A stretch of DNA of 64,000 bases from Paludibacteraceae bacterium (GTDB lineage Bacteria > Bacteroidota > Bacteroidia > Bacteroidales > Paludibacteraceae): assembly GCA_031292565.1 (NCBI GenBank), contig JARLGW010000011.1, forward strand, positions 186,001 through 250,000, read 5' to 3'. Below, piece after piece: positions 2,771 through 10,472 of this stretch. The translations under genes and the position numbers were made by a program. Each line of letters begins with the position of its first letter. Positions within the stretch are counted from its first letter, which is position 1. The notes under the pieces were generated by a model. That model searched no databases. It saw nothing but the letters and a program-made list of their open reading frames with translations, and had not been told where the DNA came from.

Positions 2771-4162
2771 TTAATAACCTAATATTTTCAGCATTGATTT
2801 ATAACTCTGTTCTTTAGCAAAAAGCTTGGTGTACCATTCGCCGTCCTCATCCCGGTCTATCACTACTAATTTAGGTGCCGGAATCAAACAATGTTGAATA
2901 CCTCCATATCCGCTTAACGACTCTTGGTAAGCTCCACAGTGAAAAAATCCGATATATTGCTCCGGGTTATTCTCCATTTTAGGTAGGAATATGGCATTGG
3001 AGTGCGCTTCCGCGTTGTAGAAGTCCTCACTATCGCAAGTCAACCCGCCCAAGTGAACCCGTTCATATTCCTTGTCCCAATTGTTGATAGCCAGGAATGG
3101 AAATCGTTGGCTGATAGCCCACGTGTCTGGTAGGGTAGTCATAAACGAGCTGTCTATCATATCCCAAAGCTCCCGGTCATTTTGTTGTTTCTGGTTCACG
3201 ATGGAATAGAGCATAGCTCCGCTTTCGCCCACGGTATATGAACCGAATTCGGTAAAAATATTAGGCTCAGGCACTCCGTTTTGTTGACACGTATTTTTAA
3301 TTTGCGCCACAATCTCCTCCGCCATATATTCATAGTCGTACGAGAAATCCAAATGAGCCTGAATAGGGAAGCCTCCACCAATATTCAAGCTATCCAAATC
3401 AGGACATTCTTTTCGTAGTTCACAGTAAAGTTCCACCGCTTTATTTAACTCGTTCCAATAATAAGCCGTGTCTTTAATACCTGTGTTAATAAAAAAATGA
3501 AGCATCTTTAAGCTCACTTGCTTATTTTTTCTAATCACACTTCTATAATATGGGATAATATCGCTATACCGTATTCCCAAGCGCGAAGTATAGAAAGCAA
3601 ACTTAGGTTCTTCCTCAGCCGCAATACGAATACCAACTTTGAATTTCTTATCGAAATCCTTTAATAATAAGTCCAGTTCAAATTTATTATCCAGTATCGG
3701 AATTACGTTTGTAAAGCCGGAATTGATTAAATTCTGAATATTTTCTACATATTGAGGTCGTTTAAATCCGTTACATATCACAAATGTATCGGGTTTAAGA
3801 CATTCCGTTTCGTATAAAGTCTCCAATAAATTAATGTCGAAAGCGGAGGACGTTTCTACATGTACGCCATGTTTGAGAACCTCTTCCATTACAAAGGAGA
3901 AATGAGAACTCTTGGTGCAATAACAGTAGTGATAATCAGCATTATAATCTACCTTAGCCATCGCCACGTTAAACATCCTTCTGGCTTTCTGAATATTCAT
4001 GCCAATTTTAGGTATGTAGGATATGCGTAGCGGAGTTCCGTATTGCTTTATAATGTCCATGATAGGAACACCATACCACAATAAGTCATTTTCGTCAACG
4101 GTAAATTCTTCGTTGGGAAATTCAAACGTTTGCTCGATTAAATCAACATACTTATTCTTCAT
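2771..4162 (-). CDS. speA: Arginine decarboxylase (fold-III PLP decarboxylase, Bacteroidetes SpeA-like)
   Basis: HYCYCTKSSHFSFVMEEVLKHGVHVETSSAFDINLLE, LNIGGGFPI, CGAYQESLSGYGG. Confidence 0.75.
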   Translation of the reverse strand: MKNKYVDLIEQTFEFPNEEFTVDENDLLWYGVPIMDIIKQYGTPLRISYIPKIGMNIQKARRMFNVAMAKVDYNADYHYCYCTKSSHFSFVMEEVLKHGVHVETSSAFDINLLETLYETECLKPDTFVICNGFKRPQYVENIQNLINSGFTNVIPILDNKFELDLLLKDFDKKFKVGIRIAAEEEPKFAFYTSRLGIRYSDIIPYYRSVIRKNKQVSLKMLHFFINTGIKDTAYYWNELNKAVELYCELRKECPDLDSLNIGGGFPIQAHLDFSYDYEYMAEEIVAQIKNTCQQNGVPEPNIFTEFGSYTVGESGAMLYSIVNQKQQNDRELWDMIDSSFMTTLPDTWAISQRFPFLAINNWDKEYERVHLGGLTCDSEDFYNAEAHSNAIFLPKMENNPEQYIGFFHCGAYQESLSGYGGIQHCLIPAPKLVVIDRDEDGEWYTKLFAKEQSYKSMLKILGY

Positions 4163-4211
4163 TTTAATACGTATTGATTGCTGAGTTTATAATTAGATAT
4201 TCAAATTTTTT

Positions 4212-4267
4212 CAATGTAAATTACTTAGATTGATAAAAAAAATACAATGTAAATTACTTACATTGAT
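4212..4267. promoter_or_regulatory. Two tandem operator-like repeats upstream of the arginine decarboxylase
   Basis: CAATGTAAATTACTTAGATTGAT (4212-4234) and CAATGTAAATTACTTACATTGAT (4245-4267): 22/23 identity, 33-bp spacing; second copy has dyad CAATGTAA-N5-TTACATTG. Confidence 0.45.
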
Positions 4268-4511
4268 TCAATGCGATTGTATTAACAAAAGTAAGTAGCA
4301 AAAATATATAAAATGCACAATCTGCAACTATTTTTACATAAATAATAACTATTAATTTAAAGCGTTTTATTATGCAGTAAATCAATGTTTTAAATATATG
4401 TTTTTGACTGTGAAATAATTTTTTCACATATATTAATTACAAATAAGGGTTAAACGGTGGAGAAAGATGGAACTTCTATCTTGAAACAAAGACTTATAAG
4501 AAAAGGAGAAC

Positions 4512-4946
4512 CTATTCTTTTATTGTATGCAACAGGTATTTCCGGGCAGCAAAGTTGCACCAAAACGTTATAAAAGCAGATATGAGTTTTGACAGCATAA
4601 AGTATAATCCCAGCACATCGGTGAACGTCCACATCAGGAGTGAGGTAACACCCAATCCGATAAAAGATAGAACGATATAAAAGAACAATTCGTTCTGCTG
4701 CTTTTTGATTTTCCTGACACTGAATACCCACGAAACACAAAGAAAATAATTTACCACGGCACTAATGGTAAATGACATAACGGATGCCAGCAAATAATTT
4801 ATATGCAGAAAATGATGGAAAGAGTATAGCATAGAAAAATCAAAAACAGTACAAGAACCTCCTACAATGAAATATTTTGCAACTTGAGAAAACGTTTCGT
4901 TTTTGAGGAGGGCTTCCGTGTATTTGTTTTTTAGGATTCTTTTCAC
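4512..4946 (-). CDS. GtrA family membrane protein (putative polyprenyl-P-sugar flippase)
   Basis: 144 aa, four hydrophobic segments, FIVGGSCTVFDFSMLYSFHHFLHINYLLASVMSF...FWCNFAARKYLL. Confidence 0.85.
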   Translation of the reverse strand: MKRILKNKYTEALLKNETFSQVAKYFIVGGSCTVFDFSMLYSFHHFLHINYLLASVMSFTISAVVNYFLCVSWVFSVRKIKKQQNELFFYIVLSFIGLGVTSLLMWTFTDVLGLYFMLSKLISAFITFWCNFAARKYLLHTIKE

Positions 4947-4971
4947 GATGGTAATTGGATAGACAAACTAT

Positions 4972-5754
4972 TTATTTTTTTGTAAATTGATCAACACATT
5001 GATTCAAACAACCAAATTCCACCCCTTTGTTTTGAAAATAGGAAATCACCTTGCCCAAACGTTGTACCATTCCATCTCCGGCATTTCTTGTTACATAAAA
5101 CGGCAGGTTAATGGGTGGTGTGTTTAATTTTACAAATTCCCAAGGATGAAAGTATAGATTTAAATATCCATCTTTTTTTAAAGCTCCTTTGGCTAGGAAT
5201 GTGTAAAACGGCACCGGAAAATTATGGAGTGAAAGCCAAAATAATGGTATTCTGAATATTGGTGATACCGAAACTGGAATTTGAAATAGTCCGCCCTCTT
5301 CTTTAAATATTCTTCTTGGCTTTGAAAAGTTATTGTACTTTCCAGGTAAGTAGGTGGGGTTCAAAGAGGAGCTGTAGCTATAGCCTGCATCAATTAGTTC
5401 TTGCTGGTTAACATTCCTCATGTTAGGCATTCTAAAGCCCGTTACAGGCTTCCCTATTAGCCCTTCAAGTATCTCTCTGGATTCTTTTAGATGCTTATTC
5501 TCAAAGTGGTTGTGATAATATCCGTGCGAAGCTACTTCATGACCTTCCGTCACCATCCTGTCAATTAAATTCTTGGCATGAAGGGCGAAATTGGCTGTGC
5601 AAAAAAACGTGGCTTTAACCTGTTTCTTTGCCAGCAGGTTTAAAATTTCCTCTGTCCCTTTTTTTGAGATGTCCATTTGCTCTTCAAAACTAAGAAGCTG
5701 GGTACAAGGAAATGGATTATCAAATTCTTCAATGTCAAAAGTTAGAAATATCAT
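4972..5754 (-). CDS. Polysaccharide deacetylase (NodB-like)
   Basis: TFDIEEFDNP (metal Asp motif), EVASHGYYHNH (HxxxH), GFRMPN motifs. Confidence 0.85.
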   Translation of the reverse strand: MIFLTFDIEEFDNPFPCTQLLSFEEQMDISKKGTEEILNLLAKKQVKATFFCTANFALHAKNLIDRMVTEGHEVASHGYYHNHFENKHLKESREILEGLIGKPVTGFRMPNMRNVNQQELIDAGYSYSSSLNPTYLPGKYNNFSKPRRIFKEEGGLFQIPVSVSPIFRIPLFWLSLHNFPVPFYTFLAKGALKKDGYLNLYFHPWEFVKLNTPPINLPFYVTRNAGDGMVQRLGKVISYFQNKGVEFGCLNQCVDQFTKK

Positions 5755-5763
5755 GATATGGTG

Positions 5764-6714
5764 TTATTTTGTAGTCGATACATTCGGTAAATTACTTGAA
5801 CGGACAATATATAGCGGACGGTTTTTTACCTGCATAAACATTTTACCCAAGTAAAGCCCTATAATACCCAGTACGCTTAGTTGAAGCCCGGAAAAGAATA
5901 CGATGGATAAAATAACCGAAGCCCACCCGGATTCATAGTGTTTGGAATAAAAAAACGAATAAAGAACGTAAGGTAAATATAAAAGAGCTATTAATGAAAG
6001 GGTAAAGCCTAAATATACAGCTGCGTACAATGGTTTCACACTAAACGATGTGACAGCTTGTATTGCTAGCGTTATCATTTTCTTTGGTGAATATTTGCTT
6101 ACACCCGAAAATCTGTCATTTGCCTCATAGTCAACACTAAGTTGCTTAAAACCCATCCATTTTATCATCCCCCGGATAAAAATGTCTGTTTCTTTAAAGT
6201 CAATAAATACATTAGCCACCTGTCTGCTCATTAATCGGAAATCGGCGGTGCCCTTTTCTATCTGAGTATCAGAGAATTTATTAAAAAATGAATAAAAAAG
6301 ATTGGATGTTTTCCGTTTAAAAAATGAAATATTTTCCGATTCTTGTCGGCGGGTGTAAACAATGTCGTAGCCCTCTTCCCATTTTTTAAGCATGGTTGAA
6401 ATCAATTCAGGTGGATGCTGCAAATCGCAGTCCATCGAAATGATGCAATCCCCGTTTGCGGAATCAAGTCCCGCTTTCAAGGCACTTTGATGACCAAAAT
6501 TTCTCGATAATTCAATATAATAAACGTAATTATCTTCTTCGGCGATATCTTGAATTTGCTGTAACGTGTCGTCAGTACTGCCGTCGTTGACAAAAATCAA
6601 TTCAAGGTTATACTGTTCAAAAGGAAAGCAGGACGCTATTCTGTTTTTGATAAACCGAATATTGCCGGATTCATTGTGTGCGGGTAGAACAATAGATACT
6701 AACCTTTTTTCCAT
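5764..6714 (-). CDS. Membrane-anchored GT2 glycosyltransferase (GtrB/ArnC/DPM-like)
   Basis: SIVLPAHNESGNI...VNDGSTDDT...DCDLQHPPE, two C-terminal TM segments. Confidence 0.9.
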   Translation of the reverse strand: MEKRLVSIVLPAHNESGNIRFIKNRIASCFPFEQYNLELIFVNDGSTDDTLQQIQDIAEEDNYVYYIELSRNFGHQSALKAGLDSANGDCIISMDCDLQHPPELISTMLKKWEEGYDIVYTRRQESENISFFKRKTSNLFYSFFNKFSDTQIEKGTADFRLMSRQVANVFIDFKETDIFIRGMIKWMGFKQLSVDYEANDRFSGVSKYSPKKMITLAIQAVTSFSVKPLYAAVYLGFTLSLIALLYLPYVLYSFFYSKHYESGWASVILSIVFFSGLQLSVLGIIGLYLGKMFMQVKNRPLYIVRSSNLPNVSTTK

Positions 6715-6717
6715 AGT

Positions 6718-7959
6718 TTATTCTCCAATTAAATAATTCTCCGATTTTCTAAAAATCACTTCATGCAAAATCTTTAACCAAATTAGCGTACAAGGTAGTG
6801 CTTGTAAGGCGTAAGGACGTATAAAATTTAAATAAAGTGGTTTCGGAAACAAATCGGATGGCCCGAAACTTGATAATACAATGGCAAAAATTATTAAAAA
6901 CCAATCCAGTTTGCTAAAGGGTCTTGGCTGAATTACTGTCCAAATAGCTACGCCGACAATAGCAATAATATAAGTGTTTGGTTCGCTTCCGGTACTAAAC
7001 AGTACCACGAAATTCATTAATGAACAGAGTGTAAGCAATTGGAATTTATCTGTTTTCCATTTTTTTATCTGAAAGAATGAGATGGCAAACAGTAAGAGTC
7101 CTGCTAATATGATCGGGGTGTTTGACCATTCAAAATGTCCCGTCGATCTTGTAATCATACCCAACAGAGAGATATTTTGAAGAACAGAATTGCTACTGCT
7201 GTTATGTGCATTCTTTAAAATAAGTTCATGAAACCATGCTTGATATTGGGAGATAATAAAATTGGGTGAGGATATAGCCATCGGCAAAACAAAGAAAACG
7301 ACGCTCCAAATAACGCACCACAGTACAAATTTTGGCTTATGCTTGGAGAAAAAGAAAAATGCCAATCCCACAATCCCATATAGTTTCACGAAAGTCCCCA
7401 ACATAATCATAAAGGCCGCCCACATATCTTTCTCTTTCCGAGTAAAGGTATACGAAAGAATAATCATCGCGGCGATAGCCGTGTTAAATTGCATGTTGGT
7501 ATGCGCTATAATCAACGAATTTAAGGTAAGCCAATAAATAATTTGGTGTTGATAATTTTTCAAAGGCAGTTCTTTAATGGCATAAAACAAAAAAACACCA
7601 AGAACAATTAGCCATAATGAACCACCAATTAAGTCGGGCAACAGGGCAAAAGGAGCAATGATAATACTAAATATAGGTCCGTAATGGTTTAAATCAGCAT
7701 AAGCTTCTGGACGGGTGGCATACAATGGGTAATGTTGCAGCGTGTTGAAAAACACATATTTATATATCTGATAATTGTTGTGTAAGCCGTGAGATAAAAA
7801 TTTAAAGAACCCTGTCAGAATAGAAATGGCAATCCATATTCCAAGGGTAAATCGGTAGTTCTGAAAAATAGGTTTTTTGATGAAATTTAGAATAGATTGT
7901 CCAATCCTTTTGAAAAAAAGTCGGAATGATCCTAATTCTGAAGTTGTTTCTTTTGCCAT
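6718..7959 (-). CDS. GT87-family (DUF2029) polyprenyl-phosphate-sugar-dependent glycosyltransferase
   Basis: Multi-TM protein, LNHYGPIFSIIIAPFALLPDLIGGSLWLI, FVKLYGIVGLAFFFF; start MAKETTSELGS preferred. Confidence 0.75.
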   Translation of the reverse strand: MAKETTSELGSFRLFFKRIGQSILNFIKKPIFQNYRFTLGIWIAISILTGFFKFLSHGLHNNYQIYKYVFFNTLQHYPLYATRPEAYADLNHYGPIFSIIIAPFALLPDLIGGSLWLIVLGVFLFYAIKELPLKNYQHQIIYWLTLNSLIIAHTNMQFNTAIAAMIILSYTFTRKEKDMWAAFMIMLGTFVKLYGIVGLAFFFFSKHKPKFVLWCVIWSVVFFVLPMAISSPNFIISQYQAWFHELILKNAHNSSSNSVLQNISLLGMITRSTGHFEWSNTPIILAGLLLFAISFFQIKKWKTDKFQLLTLCSLMNFVVLFSTGSEPNTYIIAIVGVAIWTVIQPRPFSKLDWFLIIFAIVLSSFGPSDLFPKPLYLNFIRPYALQALPCTLIWLKILHEVIFRKSENYLIGE

Positions 7960-8145
7960 AATTATCGATCTGATTTTAGTGCAAAAATACATAATACAAG
8001 GTATTTTATATCAAATGTTGATAAATTTATTTTTTTTCAACTAGTTTTAATGTGGTTCTAATGCAATTCTAATCTAATTTTTTGTGTTAAGGACGTTCTT
8101 TTCCTAAATAAATTAATTAATCAAAAAACTAATCAGAGACTAAAC

Positions 8146-8206: not shown

Positions 8207-9679
8207 ATGGCAAAAGAACTTACTTCTCGTAGCGAGAATTACTCGCAATGGTATAATGATTTGGTGTTAAAGGCCGACTTGGCCGAAAATTCAGCAGTTC
8301 GTGGTTGTATGGTTATCAAACCCTATGGATATGCTATTTGGGAAAAGATGCAGCAGGAACTGGACAGAATGTTTAAAGAAACAGGACATGTAAATGCTTA
8401 TTTTCCACTTTTTATCCCTAAATCTTTTTTCAGCAAAGAAGCCAGTCATGTAGACGGTTTTGCCAAGGAATGCGCCGTGGTTACACACTATCGGTTAAAA
8501 AACAGTCCCGATGGAAAAGGCGTTATCGTTGACCCCGATGCCAAGTTGGAAGAAGAACTAATCGTTCGCCCTACCTCCGAAACAATTATTTGGAGTACCT
8601 ATAAAAACTGGATACACTCTTACCGCGATCTGCCTATTCTGGTTAACCAATGGGCTAATGTAGTGCGTTGGGAAATGCGTACACGTTTATTTTTGCGTAC
8701 AGCCGAATTTCTTTGGCAGGAAGGGCACACCGCTCATGCTACCGAAGCAGAAGCGATAACCGAAGCTAAAAAGATGCTGGAAGTATATGCCTATTTCGTG
8801 GAAAATTTCATGGCAGTGCCTGTAATAAAAGGTGTGAAATCGGCCAATGAACGTTTTGCCGGAGCTATCGAAACATTCTGTATTGAAGCCTTGATGCAGG
8901 ATGGTAAAGCTCTTCAAGCCGGTACATCCCATTTTCTTGGGCAAAACTTTGCCAAAGCATTCGATGTCCGATTTGCCAATAAAGAAGGAAAAGAAGAATA
9001 TGTATGGGCTACCTCATGGGGTGTTTCCACCCGATTGATGGGAGCACTTATAATGACGCACTCTGACGACAACGGGTTGGTTTTGCCTCCTAATTTAGCC
9101 CCATTCCAAGTAGTAATTTTGCCTATCTATAAAGGTGAAGAACAACTGGCGCAAATCAGCGAGAAAGTAGCCGAACTGGTAGCAAAACTAAGAGCCTTAG
9201 GCATCAGTGTGAAATACGATGACAACGACAATAAAAAACCGGGATGGAAGTTTGCCGAATACGAGCTCAAAGGTGTTCCAGTTCGCTTGGGCATTGGTGC
9301 CCGTGACCTTGAAAACGGAACGGTGGAAGTAGCTCGCCGTGATACCATGACCAAGGAAACATTAGCCATGGATGGCGTGGAAAATTATATCAAAGATCTG
9401 CTGGCTGAAATTCAAACCAACATTTACCAAAAGGCATTGAAATATAGAGCTTCGGTAACCCGTGAAGTGAATAGTTACGATGAATTTAAAGTGGAAATAG
9501 AAAAAGGTGGATTCCTGCTTTGCCATTGGGACGGAACGCCTGAAACCGAAGAAAAGATTAAGGACGAAACCAAAGCCACCATCCGTTGCATTCCGTTGGA
9601 TGGAGATAAAACGCCCGGCGTATGTATGGTTACCGGTAAGCCATCAGCTCAACGGGTTATATTTGCAAGAGCATATTAA
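8207..9679 (+). CDS. proS: Proline--tRNA ligase
   Basis: [46 protein letters not shown], class II aaRS motifs [19 protein letters not shown]. Confidence 0.97.
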
Positions 9680-9701
9680 TATCAGAATTTTATATAGAAA
9701 C

Positions 9702-9734
9702 AAAAAGCGGAATTTTTAAAATCCCGCTTTTTTT
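9702..9734. terminator. Bidirectional intrinsic terminator
   Basis: AAAAAGCGGAATTTTTAAAATCCCGCTTTTTTT between convergent genes. Confidence 0.85.
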
Positions 9735-9740
9735 ATTTGA

Positions 9741-10472
9741 TTAAAATATAACTCCCATTACAAACTCCAGCGATGAGGGTTTGAAATAGATGTCGCTTTC
9801 ATAGGTTGATGCGGTGGTGGAAGGTATTTTCAAATCAAGGTTCCGGGTGGCATTACCGATACCATGATCGTAAAAATACAAGCTGGTAAGCCAGCCTTTG
9901 TAATTTATTCTTCCCGTTAGTATAGCTCCATGCAAATCATATTCAAGCCCCACACCTAAGTTGTATAACGCTCTTAGCGGGAATAATGTATAGTTGTAAT
10001 TATTGTTGTTGTAAGTGTCGTTTGCATCGCCTGCTATATCTTTCGTAGCACTACCGTTAAACAGAATACCGGCACCCAACCCCATGTTGGCTGTGAACCG
10101 CCAGTCGTCAAACGGCCCTGTTCTTAGTTTAAGCCCAATAGGCAATTCTATTTCGTTGAACTTGTAAGAAACCTCGTCGTAAATGCCTTTTAGCTGACCG
10201 CCGTAACTGTTGATGTGCAGTCCGGTGGCAATGGCATATTTGTCAGTTAGGTTAATAAAAGCGTTCAGCCCCACGTTTAGTTTAAGCTTTCCACCATCCG
10301 ACTCTATTTGATCGTTATGAATGTTTAGCCAGGTAAAAGCAGGCGACAGTTCAATTCCTAATGTTACTTTCTGAAATGGCTCACTACTTTTGCCTTGTCC
10401 GTACACGGTTGAAAAAAAAGTAATCACTAATATCAAGAGAGTCAATAATCCTTTTCTGTTCATATTTAGCAT
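9741..10472 (-). CDS. Outer membrane beta-barrel protein
   Basis: Signal peptide, alternating beta-strand pattern, VTLGIELSPAFTWLNI...NVGLNAFINLTDKYAIATGLHINSYG, terminal VMGVIF. Confidence 0.75.
   Translation of the reverse strand: MLNMNRKGLLTLLILVITFFSTVYGQGKSSEPFQKVTLGIELSPAFTWLNIHNDQIESDGGKLKLNVGLNAFINLTDKYAIATGLHINSYGGQLKGIYDEVSYKFNEIELPIGLKLRTGPFDDWRFTANMGLGAGILFNGSATKDIAGDANDTYNNNNYNYTLFPLRALYNLGVGLEYDLHGAILTGRINYKGWLTSLYFYDHGIGNATRNLDLKIPSTTASTYESDIYFKPSSLEFVMGVIF

Follow-up and report, generated by a model that had tools for sequence, protein, structure and literature searches.

The window (the whole 64,000-nucleotide stretch of DNA analysed here, from a 2.78 Mb genome whose relatives belong to the Bacteroidota) contains four co-directional open reading frames on the minus strand, arranged in the order GT87, GT2, deacetylase and GtrA, each of which scores well over the cut-off of its Pfam family (table 1). 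The gaps between them, from GT87 to GtrA, are 3, 9 and 25 bp; the original prediction of a co-directional four-gene operon had the genes, their shared direction and the first two gaps right and had placed the third at about 17 bp. The start of GT87 was set at position 7959 (an alternative start at 7992 is also open), just upstream of which sits a candidate promoter of a pattern that occurs at chance level (seven found vs. 4.95 expected in the window); indeed, neither the promoter nor the terminator scans of the window returned counts higher than chance. A divergently oriented proS gene lies upstream of the operon and a gene for a PLP decarboxylase lies 349 bp downstream on the same strand. Relatives have other genes beside proS, and in the same-genus genome used for the empty-site comparison the contig runs out near proS. 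The nearest model for the PLP-dependent decarboxylase (2771–4162, minus strand, 463 aa) is the SpeA arginine decarboxylase, than which it is shorter and against which it scores 175 bits vs. a cut-off of 624.

Table 1. Features of the operon in window coordinates.
Feature	Position	Strand	Evidence or proposed role
GT87 glycosyltransferase, GT-C fold, 413 aa	6718..7959	-	PF09594, E 1.3e-26; proposed periplasmic-face transferase
GT2, GtrB/ArnC-like polyprenyl-phosphate sugar synthase, 316 aa	5764..6714	-	PF00535 (Glycos_transf_2), E 5.3e-32
CE4/NodB-fold deacetylase, 260 aa	4972..5754	-	PF01522 (Polysacc_deac_1), E 8.8e-17
GtrA family small membrane protein, 144 aa, optional member	4512..4946	-	PF04138, E 2.2e-20; proposed flippase
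Possible Bacteroidota-type promoter, TTTG-N22-TAnnTTTG, upstream of GT87	7982..8015	-	pattern match, weak

The deacetylase lacks both a predicted signal peptide and a predicted transmembrane segment, and its structural model (pLDDT 94) matches CE4 structures, ArnD (8t0j) among them. In an alignment of 38 relatives, E9, H77, H81, R108 and H203 are invariant and D7 is nearly so, the sole exception being a tandem second copy in Chitinophaga that carries Glu at the first position; following the CE4 pattern, we take D7 to be the base and E9 a metal ligand. The DxE/HxxxH metal site, whose loss would have counted against the original prediction, is accordingly kept (D7-x-E9 and H77xxxH81, plus H203), and the model and the alignment together indicate a CE4/NodB-fold enzyme with a predicted Asp base, a metal-binding HxxxH and a C-terminal catalytic His. 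The nearest NCBIfam deacetylase model is TIGR03006, which describes polysaccharide deacetylases of the XrtA system (E 2.4e-25); the score of 89 bits falls below the cut-off of 276, and the C-terminus is partially DUF3473-like. The tandem duplication in Chitinophaga recurs at four loci (L057:7980–8771, L062:7980–8777, L063:7980–8777 and L049:8782–9558), where the second copy reads VEVEEF, with Glu for the first-motif Asp, and may be altered or inactive. Relatives of the deacetylase also occur in DPANN archaea (the Woesearchaeota MAGs L070, L071 and L074, of which L070 and L071 have a methyltransferase gene before the deacetylase and GT2 genes nearby), and in one otherwise typical cassette a SIMPL (DUF541) gene lies between deacetylase and GT2 (L086:9299–10045).

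The GT2 protein aligns over nearly its full length with the GtrB protein sll0501 (5ekp, E 6.1e-69) and also matches ArnC (9hwj, E 3.6e-36), and the PRK10714 model scores 146 bits on it, under the cut-off of 529. Two C-terminal transmembrane helices (residues 229–247 and 267–285) complete the predicted features of a membrane-linked GT-A enzyme of the type that loads polyprenyl phosphate. The GT2 family also takes in enzymes that load neutral sugars, a point that weighs against an amino-sugar product. Two Porphyromonas loci (L019 and L020) carry a variant cassette in which the GT2 is just 239 aa long, gives a low score with the GtrB-like profile and may be a DPM1-like form that lacks the membrane part at the C-terminus.

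The transferase matches PF09594 with 94 bits (cut-off 25) and has no other Pfam match. The top fold match of its model (pLDDT 89.5) is the mycobacterial mannosyltransferase PimE (9dm7, E 7.9e-7), with further GT-C proteins, PIG-U and ALG6 among them, ranking behind it, and PimE is also its sole PDB match by profile, at 17% identity; GT87 is thus predicted to fold like the GT-C enzymes that depend on polyprenyl-phosphate sugars. Relatives conserve an acidic residue in the D89-LNHYGP region, and E326 is invariant. Other cassettes suggest that the transferase is exchangeable: a GtrII protein (8783–10294) follows GT2 and deacetylase at L024, apparently in the place of GT87, and at L050 GT87 appears to be accompanied by a large DUF6056 protein (3878–5347), a candidate for the same role, which precedes GtrA, deacetylase and GT2. 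Such swaps would fit a common lipid-linked amino-sugar donor that is served by different transferases.

To examine how these genes travel together, we collected loci from GTDB species genomes using the deacetylase alone as bait, which returned 83 strong matches (the counts that follow are approximate, since the set includes a few near-duplicate loci and several truncated contigs). GT2 has its most conserved partner in the deacetylase, which it adjoins in 73 of the 83 loci, and the contiguous trio of GT87, GT2 and deacetylase is found in 53 (median gap −4 bp), in varying orders (GT87–GT2–deacetylase, deacetylase–GT2–GT87 and GT2–GT87–deacetylase). Among 297 Bacteroidota genomes drawn evenly, GT87 is present in all 14 genomes with the deacetylase vs. 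6 of the 283 others (Fisher's exact test, p about 1e-19), as judged by a profile that was built from deacetylase-linked examples, which favors the association, and that tracks this GT87 subfamily and not all GT87 proteins. The two genes lie within about 3 kb and on one strand in 13 of the 14 genomes, and they co-occur in five of six genomes in a Bacteroidales-level draw. In six genomes GT87 is not beside the deacetylase; it is found elsewhere in five (G475, G483, G484, G060 and G397) and was not detected in the sixth genome, G139, which has both deacetylase and GT2. Conversely, 6 of the 20 genomes of the 297-genome draw that carry the GT87 subfamily are without the deacetylase, so that GT87 also works without it. 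The conserved unit is therefore the trio, which recurs across the phylum far beyond chance.

The spread of this unit is patchy: of 41 genomes in the window's family 3 have it, and the one same-genus genome compared does not. Housekeeping genes make up most of its recurrent neighbors (deoxyhypusine synthase-like, EF-G, ACP phosphodiesterase, rpsP and gyrB), with an occasional GT4 or FkbM methyltransferase, which led us to reject membership of an O-antigen cluster. Such a pattern is that of an accessory trait, self-contained and either mobile or often lost. Most of the genomes that carry the system also encode ArnT-type PF13231 proteins, so another amino-sugar route is possible in them.

GtrA stands apart from this unit. 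It adjoins the deacetylase in 7 of the 83 loci (the window, L006, L007, L100, L050, L087 and L101), of which L087 and L050 represent independent adjacencies, and whole-genome scans with PF04138 found no GtrA in G437 and G484, both of which have the system, and one located elsewhere in most others. These scans, and a search with a profile made from eight GtrA examples, lead us to reject the four-gene unit as a conserved module; the idea that all four genes form one conserved set holds for GT87, GT2 and deacetylase, and GtrA is an optional addition. A relative from the window's own family (L101, 9189–10472, minus strand) nevertheless encodes a natural GtrA–deacetylase fusion, a single 427-aa open reading frame with GtrA at residues 37–145 and the deacetylase at about 155–427, followed by GT2 and GT87. 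GtrA proteins are reported to have both ends in the cytoplasm, so the fusion would place the deacetylase there as well, acting before flipping, and it supports GtrA as a partner of the deacetylase step where the two occur together. The fusion also offers a handle on whether GtrA proteins are flippases. One GtrA-type protein is reported to serve several systems in Lactococcus lactis (PMC8035078). The window's own genome (G000) encodes six GtrA proteins in total, a second of which lies beside a 571-aa open reading frame in the region of a PMT_2 match (L106:7646–9894, G000:C11); this locus may be a Gtr-like system of the ordinary kind, with no deacetylase.

We hypothesize that the cassette builds a lipid-linked amino sugar and decorates the cell envelope with it. 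GT2 would take an N-acetylhexosamine from a nucleotide sugar and attach it to undecaprenyl phosphate on the cytoplasmic face of the inner membrane, and on that same side the CE4 deacetylase would strip off the N-acetyl group, so that the amine is free. The lipid-linked hexosamine would then be carried across to the periplasmic face by GtrA, or by a different flippase in cassettes that lack it, and there GT87 would transfer the sugar to an envelope acceptor and add positive charge. Because the cassette lies mostly outside polysaccharide clusters, we favor a constant acceptor, most plausibly the lipid A-core of LPS or a membrane glycolipid; a role in modifying lipid A and its charge is our working hypothesis. 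Taken as a whole, this scheme of loading, deacetylation, flipping and transfer is probably correct. Directly behind it stand the gene identities, the intact catalytic motifs, a deacetylase with neither transmembrane nor signal segment, the conservation of the unit (the trio in 53 of 83 loci, GT87 in 14 of 14 genomes and unlinked GT87 kept in five of six), the GT-C fold with its PimE match, the transferase swap at L024, and a GtrA that is optional in general and fused to the deacetylase at L101. Counting against it are the absence of GtrA from most trio loci and from two genomes altogether, the G139 genome without GT87, and the 6 of 20 GT87 genomes without the deacetylase. Of the make–deacetylate–flip–transfer pathway originally predicted, the making, deacetylating and transferring steps are well supported by the trio, the motifs, the GtrB/ArnC-like GT2 and the PimE-like fold, and GtrA falls outside the core. 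It is possible, though we advance this tentatively, that the cassette has spread horizontally across the Bacteroidota as a self-contained counterpart of the Arn and Flm systems, in which GT87 attaches a free amino-hexose to LPS or to some other constant molecule of the envelope, deacetylase and GtrA are physically coupled in some lineages, and exchangeable GT-C partners retarget the same donor.

Other readings of the same genes must be weighed against this scheme. A GtrB-type GT2, a GtrA and a GT-C transferase already make up a complete known system (PMC8035078), and the sugar could be transferred just as it was loaded, with a deacetylase that is merely co-regulated and acts elsewhere, its substrate being, for example, a sugar nucleotide or a polysaccharide intermediate in the cytoplasm. 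The occurrence of some GT87 relatives without a deacetylase is compatible with such an ordinary three-component system, as is the fact that CE4 substrates are not readable from sequence; we nonetheless consider it unlikely, given that the deacetylase adjoins GT2 in 73 of 83 loci, that GT87 is present in every deacetylase genome of the phylum draw, and that the GtrA–deacetylase fusion points to a lipid-linked substrate. The deacetylase could also be a catalytically dead or repurposed CE4 protein, in which case no amino sugar would be made. CE4 pseudoenzymes do exist (6hpa and 7bkf are among the fold matches), and the second acidic position of the first motif is Glu; the near-complete invariance of the catalytic residues in 38 relatives and the confident CE4 fold model make this reading very improbable.

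The operon could also synthesize a cationic amino-glycolipid directly, with GT2 glycosylating a membrane lipid, the deacetylase freeing the amine, GtrA flipping the product and GT87 extending it. PimE, the top structural match of GT87, indeed acts on a glycolipid. An operon of the same synthase–deacetylase–flippase logic is known in GpgSDF, to which HexSDF has been described as analogous (PMC12713373). We regard this route as quite improbable here, since GpgS (GT4), GpgD (COG3233) and GpgF (YbhN-like) are unlike the families of the window, and since the window GT2, with its two transmembrane helices, is of the polyprenyl-phosphate GtrB/ArnC type. The transfer of a deacetylated sugar from a polyprenyl carrier to an envelope acceptor remains the reading that we prefer.

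Decoration with cationic amino sugars alters surface charge and antimicrobial-peptide resistance in Proteobacteria. Among the Bacteroidota, Capnocytophaga canimorsus carries a positively charged, free galactosamine on its LPS core (PMC3342949). For Bacteroidota of the gut, the mouth and soil, the cassette described here supplies a compact set of genes in which such decoration can be tested. We know of no biosynthetic route for the core galactosamine of C. canimorsus.

No description of the GT87–GT2–CE4 combination was found in the open literature, a scope that leaves out most subscription journals, and each of the known systems that it resembles differs from it in protein families. The GtrA–GtrB–Gtr(type) and CsbB–GtcA–YfhO systems (PMC8035078) share a GtrB-type GT2 of the kind that loads polyprenyl phosphate, a GT-C transferase with a proposed place at the outer face and, in the window operon, a GtrA-type putative flippase, whereas the cassette has a CE4 deacetylase in its conserved unit, a GT87 transferase and a GtrA that usually lies outside it. 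The Arn pathway (ArnC, ArnD, ArnE–ArnF and ArnT) shares an ArnC-like GT2, a NodB-fold deacetylase and the make–deprotect–flip–transfer logic; however, the window operon has no ArnT (GT83/PMT-type), no EmrE-like ArnE or ArnF and no ArnA or ArnB, and its deacetylase is just distantly related. Membership of the Arn system was rejected on the grounds of the transferase and deacetylase families; GtrA is the only flippase candidate in the operon, whose neighbors are the proS and PLP decarboxylase genes. In the Francisella FlmF2/NaxD/FlmK route to lipid A galactosamine and the Bordetella Lgm route to lipid A glucosamine, a lipid-linked N-acetylhexosamine is deacetylated ahead of its transfer to lipid A, and in the Flm pathway it is NaxD that acts before the transferase. 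NaxD is a YdjC-type protein and FlmK and LgmB are ArnT-type, so the parallel with FlmF2/NaxD/FlmK that had been drawn for this operon extends to the pathway logic and not to the protein families: the window deacetylase belongs to PF01522/CE4 without a YdjC match, its transferase is GT87, and we reject membership of the Flm system. The role of FlmF2 in the Francisella lipid A route has been documented (PMC8306577). GpgSDF from Pseudomonas aeruginosa and HexSDF from Clostridioides difficile share a compact operon of glycosyltransferase, deacetylase and flippase; GpgSDF has a GT4 synthase, a COG3233 deacetylase and a YbhN-like flippase (PMC12713373), families other than those of the window genes; these operons lack a GT-C transferase, and their acceptor is a phospholipid or glycolipid. 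The nearest model for the deacetylase describes XrtA-system enzymes, yet the window protein sits with a polyprenyl-phosphate GT2 and GT87. PimE shares the GT87-type GT-C fold and differs in its low identity and its lack of a deacetylase partner; it uses polyprenyl-phosphate mannose as donor and PIM lipids as acceptor. The logic of the cassette thus parallels that of the Arn, Flm/NaxD, Lgm and Gtr/CsbB systems, and its combination of protein families differs from all of them.
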